DNA from: Terriglobia bacterium | Lineage (GTDB): Bacteria; Acidobacteriota; Terriglobia; Acidiferrales; UBA7541 | Length of the DNA: 35,052 nt | Assembly: GCA_020072765.1 (NCBI GenBank) | Contig: JAIQGD010000027.1 | Span: 1 to 35,052, forward strand | Direction of reading: 5' to 3' | Part shown: piece after piece, positions 431 through 20,904 of the stretch | How the letters are laid out: each line of letters starts with the position of its first letter | Numbering within the stretch: position 1 is the first letter of the stretch | Translations under genes and position numbers: made by a program | The notes under the pieces: model-generated | Told to the model about the DNA's origin: nothing | Databases searched by the model: none | Seen by the model: the letters and a program-made list of their open reading frames with translations, nothing else

Positions 431-460
431 CGTGGGCAACTGTGGGCAATCGTTGGCAGC
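431..460. repeat. Three tandem 10-mers, probable integrase arm-type sites
   Basis: Three adjacent ten-base units (CGTGGGCAAC, TGTGGGCAAT, CGTTGGCAGC) share the core GTGGGCAA. They lie about 50 bp from a palindromic core in a truncated tRNA gene. Short direct repeats at this distance from a core are typical of arm-binding sites of tyrosine recombinases. The role is inferred; no integrase gene is in the window. Confidence 0.5.
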
Positions 461-506
461 TAAGCTATTGAAACTACAAAAAACGCCAGTGTTTATGCAG
501 GTCAGA

Positions 507-548
507 AGCGATTACGAATCGGCTGCTCTACCACTGAGCTACCTCGGC
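507..548 (-). pseudogene. tRNA-Thr(CGU), 5' half only, broken at the anticodon stem-loop
   Basis: Read on the minus strand from 548, this gives an acceptor 5' strand (GCCGAGG), T8-A9, a D-arm (GCTC, loop AGTGGTA, GAGC), and an anticodon stem GCCGA with loop TTCGTAA, so the anticodon is CGT (Thr). The 3' side of the anticodon stem pairs for only three bases, and no variable loop, T-arm (GGTTCGAATCC type) or acceptor 3' strand follows. The anticodon loop lies in the palindrome GATTCGTAATC (510-520), the kind of symmetric core used by tRNA-targeting integrases. The sequence at lower coordinates is therefore probably foreign DNA joined at this site. Confidence 0.65.
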
Positions 549-3543: not shown

Positions 3544-3613
3544 GGGCGCGAAGAGAGCGCGAAGGTATACGTGTCAAGTTTGTAGCGGTGATTCGCGATC
3601 CCGGGAGGCTTGG

Positions 3614-4147
3614 ATGGTTATTCGCTTTACCTTGAACGGCAAATCCCAGTCCGTGGATGTAAATCCCAGCATGCCATTGCTGTGGGTTCTGCGCGACACG
3701 CTCAACATGACCGGCACAAAATTCGGCTGTGGCATGGCGCTGTGCGGCTGCTGCACGGTGCACATCAATGGCGAAGCCATGCGTTCCTGTGTCATGCCCA
3801 TCTCGGCGGTGGGGGGCAAGAAAGTCACCACCATCGAAGGGCTTTCGGCCGACCACGGCCATCCGGTCCAGCAGGCCTGGATCGAGATGGATGTTCCGCA
3901 GTGCGGCTATTGCCAGTCGGGCCAGATTATGTCGGCCGCCGGACTTCTCGCCAAAGAGCCCAACCCGACCGATGACGACATTGACGACGCCATGCAGAAC
4001 ATTTGCCGCTGCGGCACCTACCAGAATATCCGCAAGGCCATTCATCGTGCCGCGGAGTTGCAAGCCGCGGCCCCGGCGCCCGGCGCCGGTGGAAATACCG
4101 AAGCCTCGCCGAGCGCGTCCGGCACGGTCACGGGAGGCGCGGAATGA
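3614..4147 (+). CDS. iorA: Xanthine-dehydrogenase-family 2Fe-2S subunit (IorA-like)
   Basis: A 177-residue small subunit of a molybdenum hydroxylase, like the alpha subunit of isoquinoline 1-oxidoreductase. Two [2Fe-2S] clusters are fully conserved: a plant-ferredoxin type with Cys39, Cys44, Cys47 and Cys59, and an all-helical type with Cys97, Cys100, Cys131 and Cys133 (CGYC and CRC motifs). It passes electrons from the molybdenum site in the large subunit to an outside acceptor. The core ends near residue 150 and is followed by an Ala/Pro/Gly-rich tail. The ATG at 3614 follows GGGAGG at good spacing; the frame is open further upstream but without family similarity. The stop overlaps the next gene (ATGA). 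Confidence 0.85.
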
Positions 4148-6174
4148 GCTCCTCCACAACGCAAGTCGACCGCCGTGTTTTTCTCAAGACCGGCCTGGCC
4201 GGAGCCACGGGCCTGGTGCTGGGCTTCTATCTGCCCGGCGCGTCTACAGCGCTGGCCGACGCCACAGCAGCCCCCGCCGCGGCGGCGGTGCTCAACGCGT
4301 GGGTCCGCGTCGCGCCGGACGACATCGTGACCATCATCATCAGCAAGTCCGAGATGGGGCAGGGCGTGATGACGTCGCTTTCCATGCTCGCGGTCGAAGA
4401 GCTGGAATGCGACTGGAAAAACGTCCGCACCGAATTTGCCCCGGCCGATAAAGTCTATATCGATCCCGTCTTCGGCATGCAGGGCACGGGCGGCAGCCAG
4501 AGCATCCACTCGGGCTGGGAGCCCATGCGCAGGGCCGGCGCGACGGCTCGGGAGATGCTCATCGCGGCCGCCGCGCAGAAGTGGGGCGTCGCCGCATCGG
4601 AATGCCATGCGGAAAATGGGGCAGTTCTTCACGCCGCCACGAACCGCCGCGCCACGTTCGGAAGTCTCGCCGAAGCCGCGTCCAAGCTCCCGGTGCCTGC
4701 CGACGTCAAGCTCAAGGACCCCAGCCAGTTCCGCCTGATCGGCAAGCCGACCCAGCGGCTCGACACGCCCATTAAGGTGAATGGCCGCGCAGGCTTCGGC
4801 ATCGATGTGCGGCGTCCCGGGATGCTGCACGCGGTCGTGCTGCGCTGCCCCGTGTTTGGAGGCAAAGTGGCGAGCTTCGACGCCACCAAGGCCAAGGCCG
4901 TTCCGGGCGTGAAGGACGTTGTGCAGATTTCCAGCGGCATCGCCGTCGTCGCGGACAACACCTGGAATGCCATGCAAGGCCGCAACGCCCTGGCAGTGAA
5001 GTGGGACGAAGGGCCGAATGCCGCCCTCAGCAGTGACACCATCCGCAAGCAGTTCGGGCGCAAGGTGAAGGCCGCCGACCTGAACGTCAACGCGGTGAAG
5101 GCGGGACGCGATTATGCCGCCGCCACGCTGGTCAAGGCCGACCCGTTTGCCATCGAGCGCATGGACAAGAACCAGGGCAAGATCATCATCGACGGCAACT
5201 CCGCATTTGGCCGGCGGGGCGTGTCGGACTTTGTCGGCGACGCGGTAGAGACCTCCAAGGCCATGAAAGCGCCGGTGCAGGTGACGTGGTCGCGGGAAGA
5301 CGACATGCAGCACGATTACTATCGTCCCACGTCGTATATTCACCTGTCGGCCGGCCTGGGTGCCGACGGATGGCCGGTGGCCTTCACCGCGCGGATCGCG
5401 TGCGACTCGGTGATGAGCTGGTTCTTCCCGGGCACAATAACCAACGGCCTGGACACCAGCAGCACCGAAGGCGTCTCGGATATTGCCTACGATATCCCCA
5501 ACATCCTGGTGGACTACCAATTGGTCAAGAGTCCGATCCCGCTGGGCTTCTGGCGGTCGGTGGGCGCGTCACAGAACGGCTTCTTCAGCGAGTCGTTCAT
5601 TGACGAGCTTGCGGCGGCGGCCAAGAAAGACCCTTACGAATTCCGCCGGCATTTGCTGGCGAAATCGCCGCGGCACTTGGCGGTCCTGAACCTGGCCGCG
5701 GAGAAGGCCGGCTGGGGCAATCCTCTTCCGAAGGGCGTTTACCGCGGCATCGCGATGCTGAGGTCGTTTTCGACCTACGTAGCCGAGGTCGCGGAAGTCG
5801 CGGTGGACAGCAGCAAGGGCAGATTGAAAGTCCAGCGCGTGGTCTGCGCCGTGGATTGCGGGCGCCCGGTCAATCCGGCGGTCATCGAGCAGCAGGTGAT
5901 GGGCGCGGTGATCTACGGTCTCACGGCGGGACTCAAGAGCGAGATCACCATCGACAAGGGCCGCGTCGTGCAGACCAACTTCGACGACAATCCGGTCGTG
6001 CGCATGAACGAAGCGCCCGTCGTCGAGGTCCACATCATCCAGAGCACGGAGGGCCCGACCGGCATGGGAGAGCCTGCGGTGCCGCCGGTCACGCCGGCGG
6101 TCTGCAACGCGATCTTTGCCGCCACCGGCAAGCGCATTCGCCGCCTCCCGGTGCGCACGCAGGATTGGACGTAA
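4144..6174 (+). CDS. iorB: Xanthine-dehydrogenase-family molybdopterin subunit (IorB-like), internally shortened
   Basis: A 676-residue large subunit of an aldehyde-oxidase/isoquinoline-oxidoreductase-type enzyme. A twin-arginine signal is clear at the N-terminus (DRRVFLKTG, then a hydrophobic run to about residue 37), so the complex is probably exported folded to the periplasm. Conserved blocks include [29 protein letters not shown] and, near the C-terminus, GMGEPAVPP carrying the catalytic Glu. About 60 residues usually present before the GGGFGRR block are missing: after residue 328 the sequence passes through about 25 unfamiliar residues straight to AFGRRG (from residue 354). Family members are usually about 720-780 residues. 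The missing part normally includes the HATMEP motif near the cofactor. No cytochrome c partner or maturation gene is adjacent. Activity is therefore uncertain. Confidence 0.8.
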
Positions 6175-6208
6175 GCCGAGAAACACCACATTGTCTGTTG
6201 AATGACAC

Positions 6209-6239
6209 AGGGGCGGGGGCCAACCCGCCCCTTTCTTTT
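6209..6239 (+). terminator. Intrinsic terminator after iorB
   Basis: A perfect 9-bp GC-rich stem (AGGGGCGGG at 6209-6217, CCCGCCCCT at 6224-6232) with a 6-nt loop, followed by TTCTTTT. It lies 35 bp past the iorB stop and 20 bp before the end of the convergent minus-strand operon. Confidence 0.85.
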
Positions 6240-6258
6240 CGGGCTTTGCGCCTGGCGG

Positions 6259-6450
6259 CTAGCGCGAGAAGGGGTACATCAGCCAGGCGACGCCCACGCC
6301 GATCACGAGGAACAGCGCGAACGACCAGAGCGCGAACTTGATTCGCCCCGCGAGGGTCTGCCGGCCGAGGCACGCGAGCGCCACCGAGACCAGCAGCGCG
6401 AAGAGAACCATGGCTGCAAAATGGCTCTCCCGGATGGCTGTGGTGGACAC
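6259..6450 (-). CDS. Small two-helix membrane protein, unknown function
   Basis: A 63-residue hydrophobic protein with two predicted membrane helices (about residues 11-28 and 38-57) and a short basic linker. The GTG start directly follows the TGA of the upstream gene, so the two are translationally coupled. I do not recognise a family. It is the last gene of the DUF167-peptidase-membrane protein operon. Its coupling and clean transmembrane pattern support it as a real gene. Confidence 0.6.
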
Positions 6451-6861
6451 TCAGCTTCTCTCCCCACGCGCCGTTGCGTACGCGTCGATCACCGCGAGCA
6501 GGTTCACGATGCCCGCCGCTGCAATGAAACGAGTGCCGTAATCGCCCGCCGCATGAGATAGATCGGGCCGAGCGTTCGTGAGCACGCGCGGAAGAAAATA
6601 GAACACTCCCGAGCAGGCGTCCGCCAGAAAGCCGAGCGTGCCGAAGGGATCGGCCGAGCCCGGCCTGAAAGCCTCGCCGTGCAACGCGTAGCCCGCCAGG
6701 GCCAGTCCGCCGGCCGTTGCAAAGAAACCGAGCGCCCGGACCCAGCGGCGCAGGCAGAGATGCCCTAGCCCCGGCACGATCCACGCGGCGAGGGCGATCA
6801 GCACGGGGAAAACGGGGTTGAGCCTGGAATTCTCTTCCGTCACGAGGGTTTCCACTGTCAT
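6451..6861 (-). CDS. Small multi-spanning membrane protein (DUF6677-like)
   Basis: A 136-residue protein with membrane helices at about residues 18-35, 42-62 and 112-128 and the motif WIVPGLGHL near the first helix, which recalls small TM2-like proteins that carry a PGxGH turn. I believe it matches a conserved acidobacterial family (DUF6677), from memory only. The start at 6861 lies three bases after the peptidase stop, so it belongs to that operon. Function is unknown. Confidence 0.6.
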   Translation of the reverse strand: MTVETLVTEENSRLNPVFPVLIALAAWIVPGLGHLCLRRWVRALGFFATAGGLALAGYALHGEAFRPGSADPFGTLGFLADACSGVFYFLPRVLTNARPDLSHAAGDYGTRFIAAAGIVNLLAVIDAYATARGERS

Positions 6862-6864
6862 CGG

Positions 6865-8043
6865 TCAGGGCAGCAGCGCCAGGATCTCTTCCTGGACGGC
6901 GCCGGTGACGCTGGCTTCGCGCTCGCCAACGTAGACATTCACTTCGCTGCGGATGCCGAATTCGGGGAGGTAGATACCCGGCTCGATGGAAAAGCAGGTG
7001 CGCGGCACGATCTTGCGGTCGTCGCGCGTCTCCAGACCATCCATGTTCGCGCCATTGCCGTGGACTTCCTGGCCGATGCTGTGGCCGGTGCGGTGCACGA
7101 AATATTTGGCGTAGCCGCCCTTGCGGATCACCGCGCGCGCCACGCGGTCCACTTCCCAGCCGTGAATGTCCCGGCCTCGCGCGAGAGAGTCCCGCACGAA
7201 TTCGACGGCGCGGTCCCGCGCCTGGCGCACGATGCGGAAAATCCTGGCATACGCGTCCGGGACGCGCGCGCCCAGATAGCCCATCCAGGTGATGTCGTAA
7301 TAGACGCTGCCCGGGCGTTTCAGCTTTGCCCAGACGTCGAGCAGCAGCAGGTCGCCCGCGCGAAGCGGCGACGACGCGCCCGGCTTCGGCTCGTAGTGCG
7401 GGTTGCCATTGTTCGGCTGCACGGCGGCGATGGGGGGCTCGGCCGTCGTGAGGCCGTTGGCTTGAAACTGATCGAGCATCCACTGCTGTAGCTCGGCTTC
7501 GGTGAGCGGCCGGCCGTCGCGCACGAAGGCCGCCGCGCGCTCGAACGCCGCGCGCACGATCCGGTCCACGATGCGGCCCGCCTCGAGATGCGACTCGAGC
7601 TGCTGAGGCGTCCACGCCGCTTCGAATTTCTGCACCAGGTCGGCCGAGGTCACCACCTTCTTCTTCAGCTTCCGCACCAGCTCGACCGTACCGGCGTCCA
7701 CCAGCCCGATGTAGGGAATGTTGTTCTCCGGCGAGTATTGCATGGCGATTTTGCGGCTTCCCGCGAGGAGTTTGCGGAGGCCTCGGTGCAACTCCTCCCA
7801 GCTCGCGTACAGCTGTTTCGCGCCCGGGAGCGCGTCGAGCGCCCCTGCCTCGATGCGGTGCGCGAGCTTTCTCGGCGCGCCCTTCGCGGGAATGAAATAA
7901 AACCAGCGGCGCGTGGACATGACGGTGGGGTCGAGCCCGAGGATGCGCCCGGCAATCGCGTCGCGATGGTGATGGTCGCAGAAAAGCCAGCCGTCGATTT
8001 TGCCGGCGCGCAGTTCCGCCTGGATGGCTTTTATGTCCGGCAT
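6865..8043 (-). CDS. M24-family metallopeptidase (Xaa-Pro dipeptidase type)
   Basis: A 392-residue creatinase/aminopeptidase-P-fold enzyme that would remove residues before proline from small peptides in the cytoplasm. The N-terminal half is the creatinase-like substrate domain. The C-terminal pita-bread domain shows the five metal ligands in order: Asp in LLLLDVWAK, Asp in YYDITW, His in HRTGHSIG, Glu in SIEPGIYLP and Glu in IRSEVNV. There is no signal peptide. The start overlaps the DUF167 gene by 13 bases, and the membrane-protein gene follows after three bases. Dipeptidase and aminopeptidase P activities cannot be told apart from the sequence. Confidence 0.85.
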   Translation of the reverse strand: MPDIKAIQAELRAGKIDGWLFCDHHHRDAIAGRILGLDPTVMSTRRWFYFIPAKGAPRKLAHRIEAGALDALPGAKQLYASWEELHRGLRKLLAGSRKIAMQYSPENNIPYIGLVDAGTVELVRKLKKKVVTSADLVQKFEAAWTPQQLESHLEAGRIVDRIVRAAFERAAAFVRDGRPLTEAELQQWMLDQFQANGLTTAEPPIAAVQPNNGNPHYEPKPGASSPLRAGDLLLLDVWAKLKRPGSVYYDITWMGYLGARVPDAYARIFRIVRQARDRAVEFVRDSLARGRDIHGWEVDRVARAVIRKGGYAKYFVHRTGHSIGQEVHGNGANMDGLETRDDRKIVPRTCFSIEPGIYLPEFGIRSEVNVYVGEREASVTGAVQEEILALLP

Positions 8044-12942: not shown

Positions 12943-13644
12943 ATGACGCCCCGCGGAAAATTCATCGTTCTGGAAGGAATCGACGGCTCGGGAAAACGCA
13001 CGCAGCTCGACCTGCTGGCGCCCGCGCTGGCGGCCCGCGGCCTGGCGGCGACGCAGATAAGCTTCCCGCACTACGACGGCTTCTTCGGCAAGCTGGTGGC
13101 GCGGTATCTCAACGGTGAATTCGGCTCGCTCGCGGATGTGGACCCGCACTTCTCCGCATTGCTCTACGCCGGTGACCGGCTGGAGGCCAGGGCCCGGATC
13201 GAATCGGCTCTGAGCGCGGGCCGGACCGTTCTGGCCGACCGCTACGTCGGCTCGAACCTCGCGCATCAGGGCGCGCGCGTGCCCCGCGAGAAGCGCGAGG
13301 AATTCCTGGCATGGCTCAAGCAGCTCGAATACGGCATCTACGCGCTGCCGGCCGAGGATCTGGTGATCTATCTGCGCGTGCCGGTGGCCGAGGCGCACCG
13401 CCTGGTCGGCGAGAAGGCGGCGCGCGGCTACACGAAGTTGCAGCGCGACTTGCAGGAATCCGACATCGCGCATTTGGAGGCGGCTGCGGAGGTCTACGAC
13501 GATCTCGCGCGCCAGCCGAACTGGATCAAGATCGAATGCCTCGACGCGGCCACAGGCGCTCTGCGCACGCCCGAGGCGATTCACGGGGACGTTCTCGCTG
13601 CGGTTGAGGCGCGCATCGTTCCCGCACTCCGTGCCCGGGGCTGA
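12943..13644 (+). CDS. tmk: Thymidylate kinase
   Basis: A 233-residue P-loop kinase that phosphorylates dTMP to dTDP. The P-loop is GIDGSGKRT (residues 12-20), with Arg after the Lys in place of the more usual Thr. The nucleotide motif DRYVGSNLAHQGAR follows near residue 92, with a Lys/Arg-rich lid near residue 160. It is slightly longer than most bacterial forms (about 210). The ATG at 12943 has no Shine-Dalgarno sequence. It lies four bases before holB, a very common pairing, and the two are probably one transcript. Confidence 0.9.
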   Translation: MTPRGKFIVLEGIDGSGKRTQLDLLAPALAARGLAATQISFPHYDGFFGKLVARYLNGEFGSLADVDPHFSALLYAGDRLEARARIESALSAGRTVLADRYVGSNLAHQGARVPREKREEFLAWLKQLEYGIYALPAEDLVIYLRVPVAEAHRLVGEKAARGYTKLQRDLQESDIAHLEAAAEVYDDLARQPNWIKIECLDAATGALRTPEAIHGDVLAAVEARIVPALRARG

Positions 13645-17683: not shown

Positions 17684-18862
17684 TCAGCGGAATAGGCGGA
17701 GTGCAACGCGGTCGGGGAGATCCTTGTCCACTTTGCTTCCCGGTGTAAGCATGTCGGCAGTGCCGTAGAAGTCCTCTGCATTGATGGGCTTACTGGAAAG
17801 CCCGAGTTGCAGAACCTGGAGATGCGTGCCGCGGTCGAACACCTTGTTGGGCAAAATGCGCTTGACCAGCAGGCGCAGGCCGCCAAAAGCCAGGCCGGCA
17901 ACCAGCGCGAAGACACAAATGGCTCCCGTCCCGATAATAATCCCGACGATCATGACCTCGATGCGAGGTTCCTTGAACTGAAAGGTGGGCTCATCCCAGG
18001 TCAGTGCCGTGCCCGAATGAACCTGATCGAGCAGGGGAGCCGCTTCTTGTTGCGTGGACGGCCCGGATACGATCGCCAGCAGCGTGAGCGCGCGCTTGGC
18101 AAACAACGCCGGCGACGCAGCGTCCGGCTTCGATCCGTTCACGTTGAATTTCTTGCGCAGGTCCGCCAGGCCTTGCTTGGCCAGTTGCGGGGTCGGAAAA
18201 TCCGCGAGCAGCAGCACCGTTTCGCGGCCGCCGGAGCGGTATCGGGCCAATTCCGCTTCCGCTCCGGTGGAAACGCCCAGCGAATCGCCCAAGGCGACGG
18301 GGAAAAGCTGATTCAGTGTCTGCGGCCCAAGAACATAGCGGTCGGTTCCCTCGACCAGGCCCTTGGTGGGCAAGAGTTGCCAGAGCGTGGGCAGCGGGCC
18401 TGCTTGTGCATGGGGTTGAAGCGCGCCCACGAGACTCTTCAGATCCGGGCCGGCTTTCGACAGATCGCGGCCGCGCACTTCGATCACCAGATTGCCCAGC
18501 AGAATCAAGGCGCGTTCCCGCGACACAGAGGCGTGCTCAGTCAGGTCCGAGCGCGCCATGCCCGGCGCTCGCAGGTAGGAGTAAAGACCGTAGCCGCCGG
18601 TCGGATCCTTCATCCGGAAGACGGTGGCTTGCACGGCACCCGCCGCATCGCCGCCCGCGCGTGCGTAGCTGCCGGATTCGGAGGAGACCAATCCGTACTC
18701 GGCCAGGATAGCCGGCGATACCTCCGGCGAAGGCGCGGTGGCGGGCGCGTTGCCGGGCGCCGCGGCGCCCCAGCGGCCAAACGAATGCGGAAGAATCTGC
18801 TGCGCCTTCGCGGGGAGCGCGGGCACGAACAACACGATTAGCAGCAGAAGGGAGCGCCACAT
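17684..18862 (-). CDS. Secreted/anchored protein of unknown function (DUF6599-like)
   Basis: A 392-residue protein with a signal peptide (hydrophobic core then PAKAQQ), an extracellular region of about 280 residues and a C-terminal membrane helix (about residues 300-325) with a basic cytoplasmic tail. It resembles a conserved acidobacterial family (DUF6599, from memory). The start at 18862 is preferred over the ATG at 18874 because GGAG lies seven bases before it. It follows the amidase by 26 bases, so it is the third gene of the transglycosylase-amidase operon; an envelope role is inferred from that alone. Confidence 0.65.
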   Translation of the reverse strand: MWRSLLLLIVLFVPALPAKAQQILPHSFGRWGAAAPGNAPATAPSPEVSPAILAEYGLVSSESGSYARAGGDAAGAVQATVFRMKDPTGGYGLYSYLRAPGMARSDLTEHASVSRERALILLGNLVIEVRGRDLSKAGPDLKSLVGALQPHAQAGPLPTLWQLLPTKGLVEGTDRYVLGPQTLNQLFPVALGDSLGVSTGAEAELARYRSGGRETVLLLADFPTPQLAKQGLADLRKKFNVNGSKPDAASPALFAKRALTLLAIVSGPSTQQEAAPLLDQVHSGTALTWDEPTFQFKEPRIEVMIVGIIIGTGAICVFALVAGLAFGGLRLLVKRILPNKVFDRGTHLQVLQLGLSSKPINAEDFYGTADMLTPGSKVDKDLPDRVALRLFR

Positions 18863-18888
18863 AGATAACTCCATTATACGCGGGAATC

Positions 18889-20904
18889 TTACTTCGAGGC
18901 GCTCGTCACGATGCTTTCGGCTTCCAGGCGGTCGCCGGAGATGTGATTGTCCGAGACGAGCTTCTGCTTGTTGTAGGAGAGGCTGTTCAGGTTGTCGAGA
19001 TAGGTGGCGATGCCGCGGTAGAGTCCGTCGGCGATCCTCTGGCGCTGCTGGGCATTGCGGAGCAACCGCTCATCGTTCGGATTGCTGACGAAGGAAATCT
19101 CCGACAGCACCGAGGGCATATTGGCCCCGATCAGGACGATGAACGGCGCTTTCTTCACGCCGCGGTTCTTCTCGCGGTGACTCACCAAGCGCAACCGCTC
19201 GGTCAGCGTGCCCTGGATGTCCCCAGCCAATTCCTTCGATTCCTCGATCTTCTCGTTGCGCGCGATCTTCTTGATCAGGTCCTGGAGATCGTGCAGCGAT
19301 TCCTGCGAATTCGAATTTTCGCGCGCGGCCACCGCCATGGCGTCGTCCGACGCGGTGAAGTTCAAATAATAGGTCTCCACGCCGCGGGCCGCCGGATCGC
19401 GGCTGGAATTGGCGTGAATGGAGATGAACAGATCGGCCTTGGCACTGTTGGCGATGGCGGTCCGCTGCTCCAGGGGAATAAACGTATCGTCCTTGCGCGT
19501 GTAGATGACTTCCGCGCCGGGCAACTTCTTCTCGATCAAGCCTCCCAGCCGCAGCGCCACGTCCAGGCACAGGTCCTTCTCCATCAAGCCGCGCGGACCG
19601 ATGGTGCCCGTGTCGTGGCCGCCGTGGCCCGGGTCGATCACGATGCGGCTGATTTTCAGCCCGAGTGCGCGCGTCAGGGAGCGCTGGCCATCGCGCGTGG
19701 GTTTGGGTACCGAGGGCGGCGCCAGCGCAGCGGTTTTGCCGTCGTTGGTCTTGGAATCCACTGCTGCCGTCTTCCCGCCGCCTTTGATGCTGGGCTTCCG
19801 AGCCGGTTCAGGCGCCGGCGCGGCCTTTGCGGATTTCGCCGGGGCCGCCTCGGCAGTACGATCGGAAGAATTCTGGGCGGTGTTGACGGCGACGGTCTTG
19901 GCCGGTGCAGCCTGCGCAGCCGCGGAGCCGGAAACTTCCCGGCGTATCTTGACCGGGTGGGCCGCAACATCAATCACCAGCCGGTAGGGATTCGCGAGAA
20001 GAACCGCGGAGTAATCCTTCGCGCCGTCCACATTGAGGACCAGCCGGACCACCCCTTGCTTGTTTTGTCCCACCCGCGCCGATTTCAGCAGGCCATCGTG
20101 CACATCGAGCGACGCCTTGGCCAGGTCGTGGCTGAGCCGGGCTTTGTAAAGATCGAAATAGATGCGGTCGGGCGAGGCAATGCGCGCGGCCTCATAGCGC
20201 ACAGTATCCTCGAGCGTCACGACGACTCGAGTTGCTTCCGGCGTGTTCCACGTGTGGATGTCGGTGACGCGCGGGATGTTTCCGCTGGCCTCGCGGGGCT
20301 CCACGCGCTGTCCCTGGATTTCGGGCAGGGGATCGGTGACCTGTTCCGGAGCGCGCTGGCCGGCAATTTCCTTCAGAGCGGCGCGGACATCGTCGGCCTT
20401 ATCCGAGCGCGGGAAACGCTTCAAATATTCCTTGTAAGTGGCTTCCGCGGCATCCGGTTTTTGCAGCTGATCGTTCTGGATGCGGGCGATCGCCAGCAAC
20501 GCTTCGCTGCGGTAGCGGCTGCGCGGATATTGCTTGAGCAAAAATCGATAGGTATCGACGGCCGACTGAAAATACTTGGCATCGAACAGGCGGGCCATCT
20601 CCTGGTAGAGTTCGGCCTCGGCAATCAGGGAAGGCGTTACTTCCTCGGCCTGCGGCGCGATCAGGTAGACCTTGTGGTAGGCGGCGATGGTCTGCTTGTA
20701 ATCGGAGACGGCGCGGTCTTTTTCCAGATAGCCTTCCAGCATCGTGCGCATTTTCACGGCGAGCTCGAACTGTTCGCGGGCGTCGGATTGTTTGTCGGCG
20801 CGGGCTGGCGCGGCCAGGCAGACCCCTAGGCTTATGGCGATCCCCAGGGCGAACAGGACCTTTGTGGCGGAAGACCGTGTTGGAGAAAAAATTCGAGCTC
20901 TCAT
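18889..20904 (-). CDS. N-acetylmuramoyl-L-alanine amidase with TPR and AMIN domains
   Basis: A 671-residue secreted peptidoglycan hydrolase. Domains in order: signal peptide (to about residue 36), helical TPR-like repeats (about 40-190) resembling outer-membrane assembly adaptors, an AMIN domain (about 215-325) that directs binding to peptidoglycan, an Ala/Lys/Pro-rich linker, and the amidase_3 domain (about 425-650). Zinc ligands are His in IDPGHGG, Glu in LMEKDL and His in ISIHAN; the catalytic Glu is in LSEISFVSN. It cleaves the bond between MurNAc and the stem peptide, usually during cell separation. The TPR front end is uncommon in AmiC-type enzymes. The start overlaps the transglycosylase stop (ATGA). 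Confidence 0.88.
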   Translation of the reverse strand: MRARIFSPTRSSATKVLFALGIAISLGVCLAAPARADKQSDAREQFELAVKMRTMLEGYLEKDRAVSDYKQTIAAYHKVYLIAPQAEEVTPSLIAEAELYQEMARLFDAKYFQSAVDTYRFLLKQYPRSRYRSEALLAIARIQNDQLQKPDAAEATYKEYLKRFPRSDKADDVRAALKEIAGQRAPEQVTDPLPEIQGQRVEPREASGNIPRVTDIHTWNTPEATRVVVTLEDTVRYEAARIASPDRIYFDLYKARLSHDLAKASLDVHDGLLKSARVGQNKQGVVRLVLNVDGAKDYSAVLLANPYRLVIDVAAHPVKIRREVSGSAAAQAAPAKTVAVNTAQNSSDRTAEAAPAKSAKAAPAPEPARKPSIKGGGKTAAVDSKTNDGKTAALAPPSVPKPTRDGQRSLTRALGLKISRIVIDPGHGGHDTGTIGPRGLMEKDLCLDVALRLGGLIEKKLPGAEVIYTRKDDTFIPLEQRTAIANSAKADLFISIHANSSRDPAARGVETYYLNFTASDDAMAVAARENSNSQESLHDLQDLIKKIARNEKIEESKELAGDIQGTLTERLRLVSHREKNRGVKKAPFIVLIGANMPSVLSEISFVSNPNDERLLRNAQQRQRIADGLYRGIATYLDNLNSLSYNKQKLVSDNHISGDRLEAESIVTSASK

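Follow-up and report, generated by a model that had tools for sequence, protein, structure and literature searches.

A tRNA-Thr(CGU) gene of a Terriglobia bacterium, probably split by an integrative element carrying the 5′ half of the tRNA

The stretch of DNA analysed here, referred to as the window, is an entire contig (C52) of 35,052 nucleotides from a 3.78-Mb Terriglobia genome that comprises 152 contigs and is 96.6% complete. Close to the contig start, on the minus strand, the window contains the 5′ half of a tRNA-Thr(CGU) gene; positions 548–509 are 100% identical to nucleotides 1–40 of tRNA-Thr(CGT) as it occurs, intact, on another contig of the same genome, C62 (E = 2e-14). The broken gene described in the original prediction is thus real. 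Past nucleotide 40 of the tRNA, just beyond the anticodon loop, the sequence passes into unrelated DNA that continues to the contig start, and neither ARAGORN nor Rfam found a complete tRNA in the window. The break lies one base beyond GATTCGTAATC, a part of the anticodon stem and loop that had been called a palindrome; it does consist of two 4-bp arms flanking CGT, but it is not a full palindrome. The half gene has kept its native promoter, with a −35 element TTGACA (582–587), an 18-bp spacer and a −10 element TACAGT (558–563), and the TTGACA-18-TACAGT arrangement is also located 5′ of the intact tRNA-Thr(CGT) in relatives G001, G009, G018, G023 and G035.

The DNA between the contig start and the half gene (C52:1–508) matches nothing in 19 genus relatives, nor any other part of its own genome. 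Its GC content is 55%, against 60–67% across most of the following 5 kb. It contains an arm-type site pair, a 13-mer, a hairpin, three tandem 10-mers and a partial reading frame (Table 1), for which no family was matched in the family searches. The 10-mers had been interpreted as arm repeats of an integrase. They are present where described, and in shuffled versions of the 508-bp flank a triple of equal quality appeared in 0 of 500 cases with a period of 10 and in 4 of 500 with any period from 8 to 12. The GTGGGCAA of these 10-mers, however, has no copy at the C62 end, with up to one mismatch allowed; the sites common to both ends are the 8-mers at 398–405 and 409–416.

Table 1. Features of the window (C52) and of the corresponding end of contig C62
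Feature	Position	Strand	Remarks
Left end of the putative integrated element, running on past the contig start	1–508		Absence from relatives, GC content
Incomplete ORF of the element (98 aa or more), truncated by the contig start	2–298	+
Perfect 12-bp inverted repeat with a 13-nt loop (hairpin), inside the element end	317–353
Arm-type site pair, CAATGCAAGT (398–405) and CAATACAAGA (409–416), 8-mer cores 11 bp apart	398–416	−
Three tandem 10-mers, GTGGGCAACT, GTGGGCAATC and GTTGGCAGCT	432–461	+	47 bp from the half gene
13-mer AACGCCAGTGTTT	482–494	+	Comparison of the element DNA flanking the two junctions
Orphan 5′ half of tRNA-Thr(CGU), nt 1–40; attachment junction with 40-bp core	509–548	−	100% identity to C62:98529–98603
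Native tRNA promoter, stranded with the half gene	558–587	−
Chromosomal flank: glycosyltransferase-like gene, GT28 C-terminal domain	722–1891	−
Chromosomal flank: genes for a (2Fe-2S) subunit/molybdopterin-type oxidoreductase and an M24-type peptidase	3594–8043		Named from the sequences
Tyrosine-integrase gene, 303 aa, running into the contig end	C62:98648–99556 (L009:8646–9557)	−	Same strand as the tRNA

The only intact tRNA-Thr(CGU) copy in the genome is located on the minus strand of C62 (98529–98603), and the scan for other tRNA-Thr genes, which the original prediction had proposed, also gives tRNA-Thr(UGU) and tRNA-Thr(GGU). A whole-tRNA search of the genome finds two places only, this full copy and the 1–40 half on C52, and no orphan tRNA-Thr 3′ half. 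The genome has ten copies of GATTCGTAATC; in the eight loci that were read, the C62 copy is the only one besides that on C52 to fall within a tRNA, and 8 of the 10 lie outside tRNA genes as far as loci were read. Upstream of the intact tRNA and codirectional with it is an integrase gene, whose stop codon is 41 bp before the tRNA. The encoded protein matches PF00589 (E = 3e-16) and the phrog_1 integrase family (E = 1.5e-40) and has the nucleophile motif FHRYN; the first His of the H-x-x-R motif is replaced by Tyr (YDLRR; HDLRR in relatives), and the Tyr nucleophile is kept, so the enzyme may or may not be active at present. Behind the tRNA there is almost 100 kb of chromosome-like contig. The proposal of integration by a tyrosine recombinase is borne out by this gene; both items that were to be sought, an integrase gene and the missing 3′ half beside a second GATTCGTAATC, are found on C62.

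Beyond the half gene, the window carries chromosomal genes. Those at 3.6–16 kb flank an unbroken tRNA-Thr(CGT) on this same side in about 12 relatives, and the C52 side is therefore the ancestral upstream flank. The glycosyltransferase gene, which adjoins the half tRNA here, is not adjacent to tRNA-Thr(CGT) in the relatives, but the genes further in are. The flank on C62 was not found beside tRNA-Thr(CGT) in the relatives; the downstream side varies among them in any case, as would be expected at an integration hot spot, so this flank is neither confirmed nor excluded by them. A proof by an empty site with both flanks was sought, and no joined empty site was obtained, the upstream side being conserved and the downstream side differing between relatives. 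Other elements have also used this gene. In relative G006 (contig C21), an orphaned 5′ half of tRNA-Thr(CGT) has arisen independently (L141:217–256), with an identical breakpoint and a different element, TTTAGGTAC repeats being found behind it, and in G017 a rebuilt tRNA-Thr is located downstream of a related integrase. In G011 (L149) and G034 (L156), ordinary 3′-half duplications of tRNA-Thr(CGT) lie 10.7 and 14.3 kb away.

The two junctions with the 40-nt repeat are on separate contigs, and their correspondence was assessed on eight elements built alike, one of them a free attP: the arm preceding the rebuilt tRNA was compared with the one that lies past the orphan half. In every one of the eight, each arm holds two 8-mers spaced by about 11 bp, and the motif is particular to the element. 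In the tRNA-Thr island the motif is AATGCAAG, present with equal 11-bp spacing at C62:98658–98678 and in the window at 398–416. A pair common to the C52 and C62 ends arose in 0 of 1000 shuffles, and mismatched pairings of the tRNA-Thr element with the seven other elements gave no shared pair, the match matrix of the eight elements being diagonal. In addition, the 13-mer AACGCCAGTGTTT is inverted across the core (window 482–494 and C62:98615–98627), a match of at least 13 being reached in 2 of 1000 shuffles. Because the arm-site pair and the inverted 13-mer are common to both, C52:1–508 and the C62 end very likely form the two arms of a single attP. The same two features speak against the ends being separate integrations at tRNA-Thr in a tandem array, with the C62 integrase not driving the C52 element. 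Tandem islands are frequent at tRNA genes and the contigs are unjoined, but an array should have produced an additional tRNA copy, half or whole, and none is seen in the genome; this arrangement is judged very unlikely.

A chimeric contig, in which a tRNA fragment is fused to unrelated DNA, might be suspected in a metagenome-type assembly of 152 contigs with a junction 509 bp from a contig end. Such an error would not account for a breakpoint located exactly where independent elements break tRNAs (39–41 nt), for the arm sites on the foreign side that match C62, or for the independent half gene with an identical breakpoint in G006, and it can be given next to no credence.

How the halves are distributed can be seen in elements whose two ends lie on one contig. 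The same genome has a second 5′-half island, in tRNA-Lys(TTT), on contig C78 (13599–19859, L162). The rebuilt tRNA-Lys (19785–19859) is located behind an integrase gene (18540–19751), and an identical 40-nt 5′ half is at 13599–13638; this half lies 6.1 kb upstream of the rebuilt gene, and the island has a few ORFs. Further elements of this kind are found in tRNA-Leu (G030, 39 nt), tRNA-Val (G025, 41 nt), tRNA-Asn (L177, 41 nt) and tRNA-Met (L192, 40 nt). The orphan halves of the one-contig elements are exact, 39–41 nt long, and always run from nucleotide 1 to the anticodon loop. A related element exists as viral contig L269 (IMGVR_UViG_3300005764_002286), which has 110-bp direct terminal repeats and is circular by that sign. 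Here, the integrase gene is followed after 13 bp by the 5′ half of tRNA-Leu only (7773–7820), with no whole tRNA; judging from this arrangement, the site is a free attP of the 5′-half type. In a second viral contig, L279, an orphan half and a rebuilt gene occur together. The one-contig elements and the free attP in L269 indicate that the element supplies the 5′ half and the host the 3′ half. In two loci, L085 (798–1805) and L093 (1120–2457), the integrase frames continue through the adjoining tRNA-Leu gene; the C-terminus of these integrases would be encoded by the tRNA and altered upon integration.

The explanation held with high confidence is that an integrative element with the 5′ half in its attP split the single-copy tRNA-Thr(CGU) gene, the complete tRNA being rebuilt on C62. 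The element, a phage, satellite or island, would have entered the gene at the anticodon loop by means of its tyrosine integrase, its attP bearing nucleotides 1–40 of the tRNA beside the integrase gene. The crossover would have stranded the host promoter and 5′ half at 587–509 of the window, from which they now read into element DNA. At the other end, the 5′ half brought by the element would have been fused with the 3′ half of the host gene to give C62:98529–98603, 41 bp behind the integrase gene. We infer that C52 and C62 are joined by one element. The locus has an integrase gene at the junction, a direct tRNA repeat with one intact tRNA and arm repeats on both sides, as in a tyrosine-recombinase tRNA island; the displaced 5′ part precedes the intact tRNA and points the same way, as in a 5′-fragment island. 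Some details of the original prediction are reversed by this reading. The common core is 40 bp rather than short; the 3′ half, thought to have been left unrestored at the cost of the tRNA, is part of a gene rebuilt from the element's 5′ half and the host's 3′ half; and the element, expected to carry a 3′ half, carries the 5′ half.

The half gene on C52 does look broken and the intact copy adjoins the integrase, which is also the picture given by tRNA-dependent lysogeny, known from phages such as Mycobacterium phage Fionnbharth (PMC10865867). In that case, integration through a short core would have destroyed the host tRNA, and the tRNA on C62 would be the element's own complete gene. This would require an orphan host 3′ half, of which none was found in the genome, and a core of about 10 bp, not 40. 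The distances between the arm sites and the intact tRNA are, moreover, those seen in eight related elements, which makes the C62 tRNA the attachment core itself; the free attP of the 5′-half type has a 5′ half only, and the almost 100 kb behind the C62 tRNA resemble chromosome. Destruction of the host gene with replacement by a phage tRNA is accordingly regarded as extremely unlikely.

With reconstruction of the gene as the preferred explanation, the rebuilt tRNA is presumed to be expressed, either from a promoter of the element or by read-through from the integrase gene. A lack of promoters in front of rebuilt tRNAs was considered; promoter consensus scores of 36 rebuilt and 30 native tRNAs were no different, both being somewhat above shuffles. 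Since the scores upstream of rebuilt tRNAs were no lower than those of native ones, this claim was dropped, and the scores would fit element promoters. A −10-like stretch, TTATAGTT, noticed by eye, is common to L098, L349 and L350 between the integrase stop codon and the tRNA, and may be the element's tRNA promoter.

The frequency of the 5′-half orientation was studied in samples picked by similarity to two integrases, those of C62 and C78, so the counts describe those groups, not the whole phylum. In a tree of 103 integrases from this analysis, the C62 integrase belongs to a supported clade of 13, where 11 genes are codirectional with and upstream of a tRNA, none face it and 2 have no tRNA nearby; orientation on the tree is clustered beyond shuffled labels. 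Named relatives of this integrase are mostly from metagenome genomes of Acidobacteriota, one of them in the same genus. Across 121 relatives, the homologues of the C78 integrase are codirectional in 20 cases and facing in 1, and two of the four tRNA-adjacent integrases of the genome itself are codirectional. Most group members were judged by gene orientation; in those with the two ends in the data, it was the 5′ half that had been stranded. The distribution indicates that the 5′-half orientation is inherited within integrase groups and is not accidental. It is quite possible, if short of probable, that two separate tyrosine-integrase groups, widespread in Acidobacteriota genomes and present in related viral contigs, are specialised in carrying the 5′ halves of many tRNA genes, which would cut the host tRNA off from its native promoter and bring it immediately downstream of the integrase gene (1–70 bp as a rule).

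The apparent loss of a tRNA gene is thus a displacement, which becomes apparent only once both contig ends are found. The island adds a clear bacterial case to the rarer islands that capture a tRNA gene by its 5′ half, on the side of its promoter; the elements described form a set for asking whether a mobile element can take over transcription of an important host tRNA. If the tRNA does depend on transcription from the element, the host would be bound to retain that element end.

Integration into tRNA genes with a displaced 5′ fragment has been described before. In the Islander database (Hudson et al. 2014, PMC4383910), the 5′ fragment is found in 159 of 3919 islands (about 4%) and the 3′ fragment in 3760, whereas the 5′ type is the rule in the two integrase groups considered here. 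The 5′-fragment islands of that set have the same crossover at the anticodon loop, the same tyrosine integrase, and the same intact tRNA at one end with the displaced 5′ fragment at the other. In the passage of a review that cites Williams 2002 (PMC8371274), a rebuilt tRNA severed from its own promoter is described as a rarity in bacteria. The pTN3-type integrases of Thermococcus (Cossu et al. 2017, PMC5495485; review PMC8371274) likewise use an attP with a tRNA 5′ half (41 bp shared), and in both systems the rebuilt tRNA is parted from its original promoter. The pTN3 system is, however, archaeal, and its att site is within the integrase gene, so that integration splits that gene; in the tRNA-Thr island the site lies 41 bp behind the gene, although the frames of L085 and L093 do cross the tRNA. 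In tRNA-dependent lysogeny (Guerrero-Bustamante and Hatfull 2024, PMC10865867), an integrase also disrupts a tRNA gene and the element meets the need for the tRNA, but the gene is not rebuilt; a whole phage tRNA substitutes for it and the core is short (about 10 bp). Classical tRNA islands and prophages, which carry the 3′ half, employ the same enzyme family and class of site, and G011 and G034 are examples for tRNA-Thr(CGT) itself. In such classical elements the rebuilt tRNA keeps the host promoter and 5′ half, and the integrase gene is oriented head-on towards it. Site-specific integration at a tRNA is an ordinary kind of event, and the tRNA-Thr island is a well-supported case of it, with the gene rebuilt and the orientation less usual. 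Splitting a tRNA gene with an element-carried 5′ half is a known but uncommon mode, of which two integrase groups in Acidobacteriota seem to make a habit.
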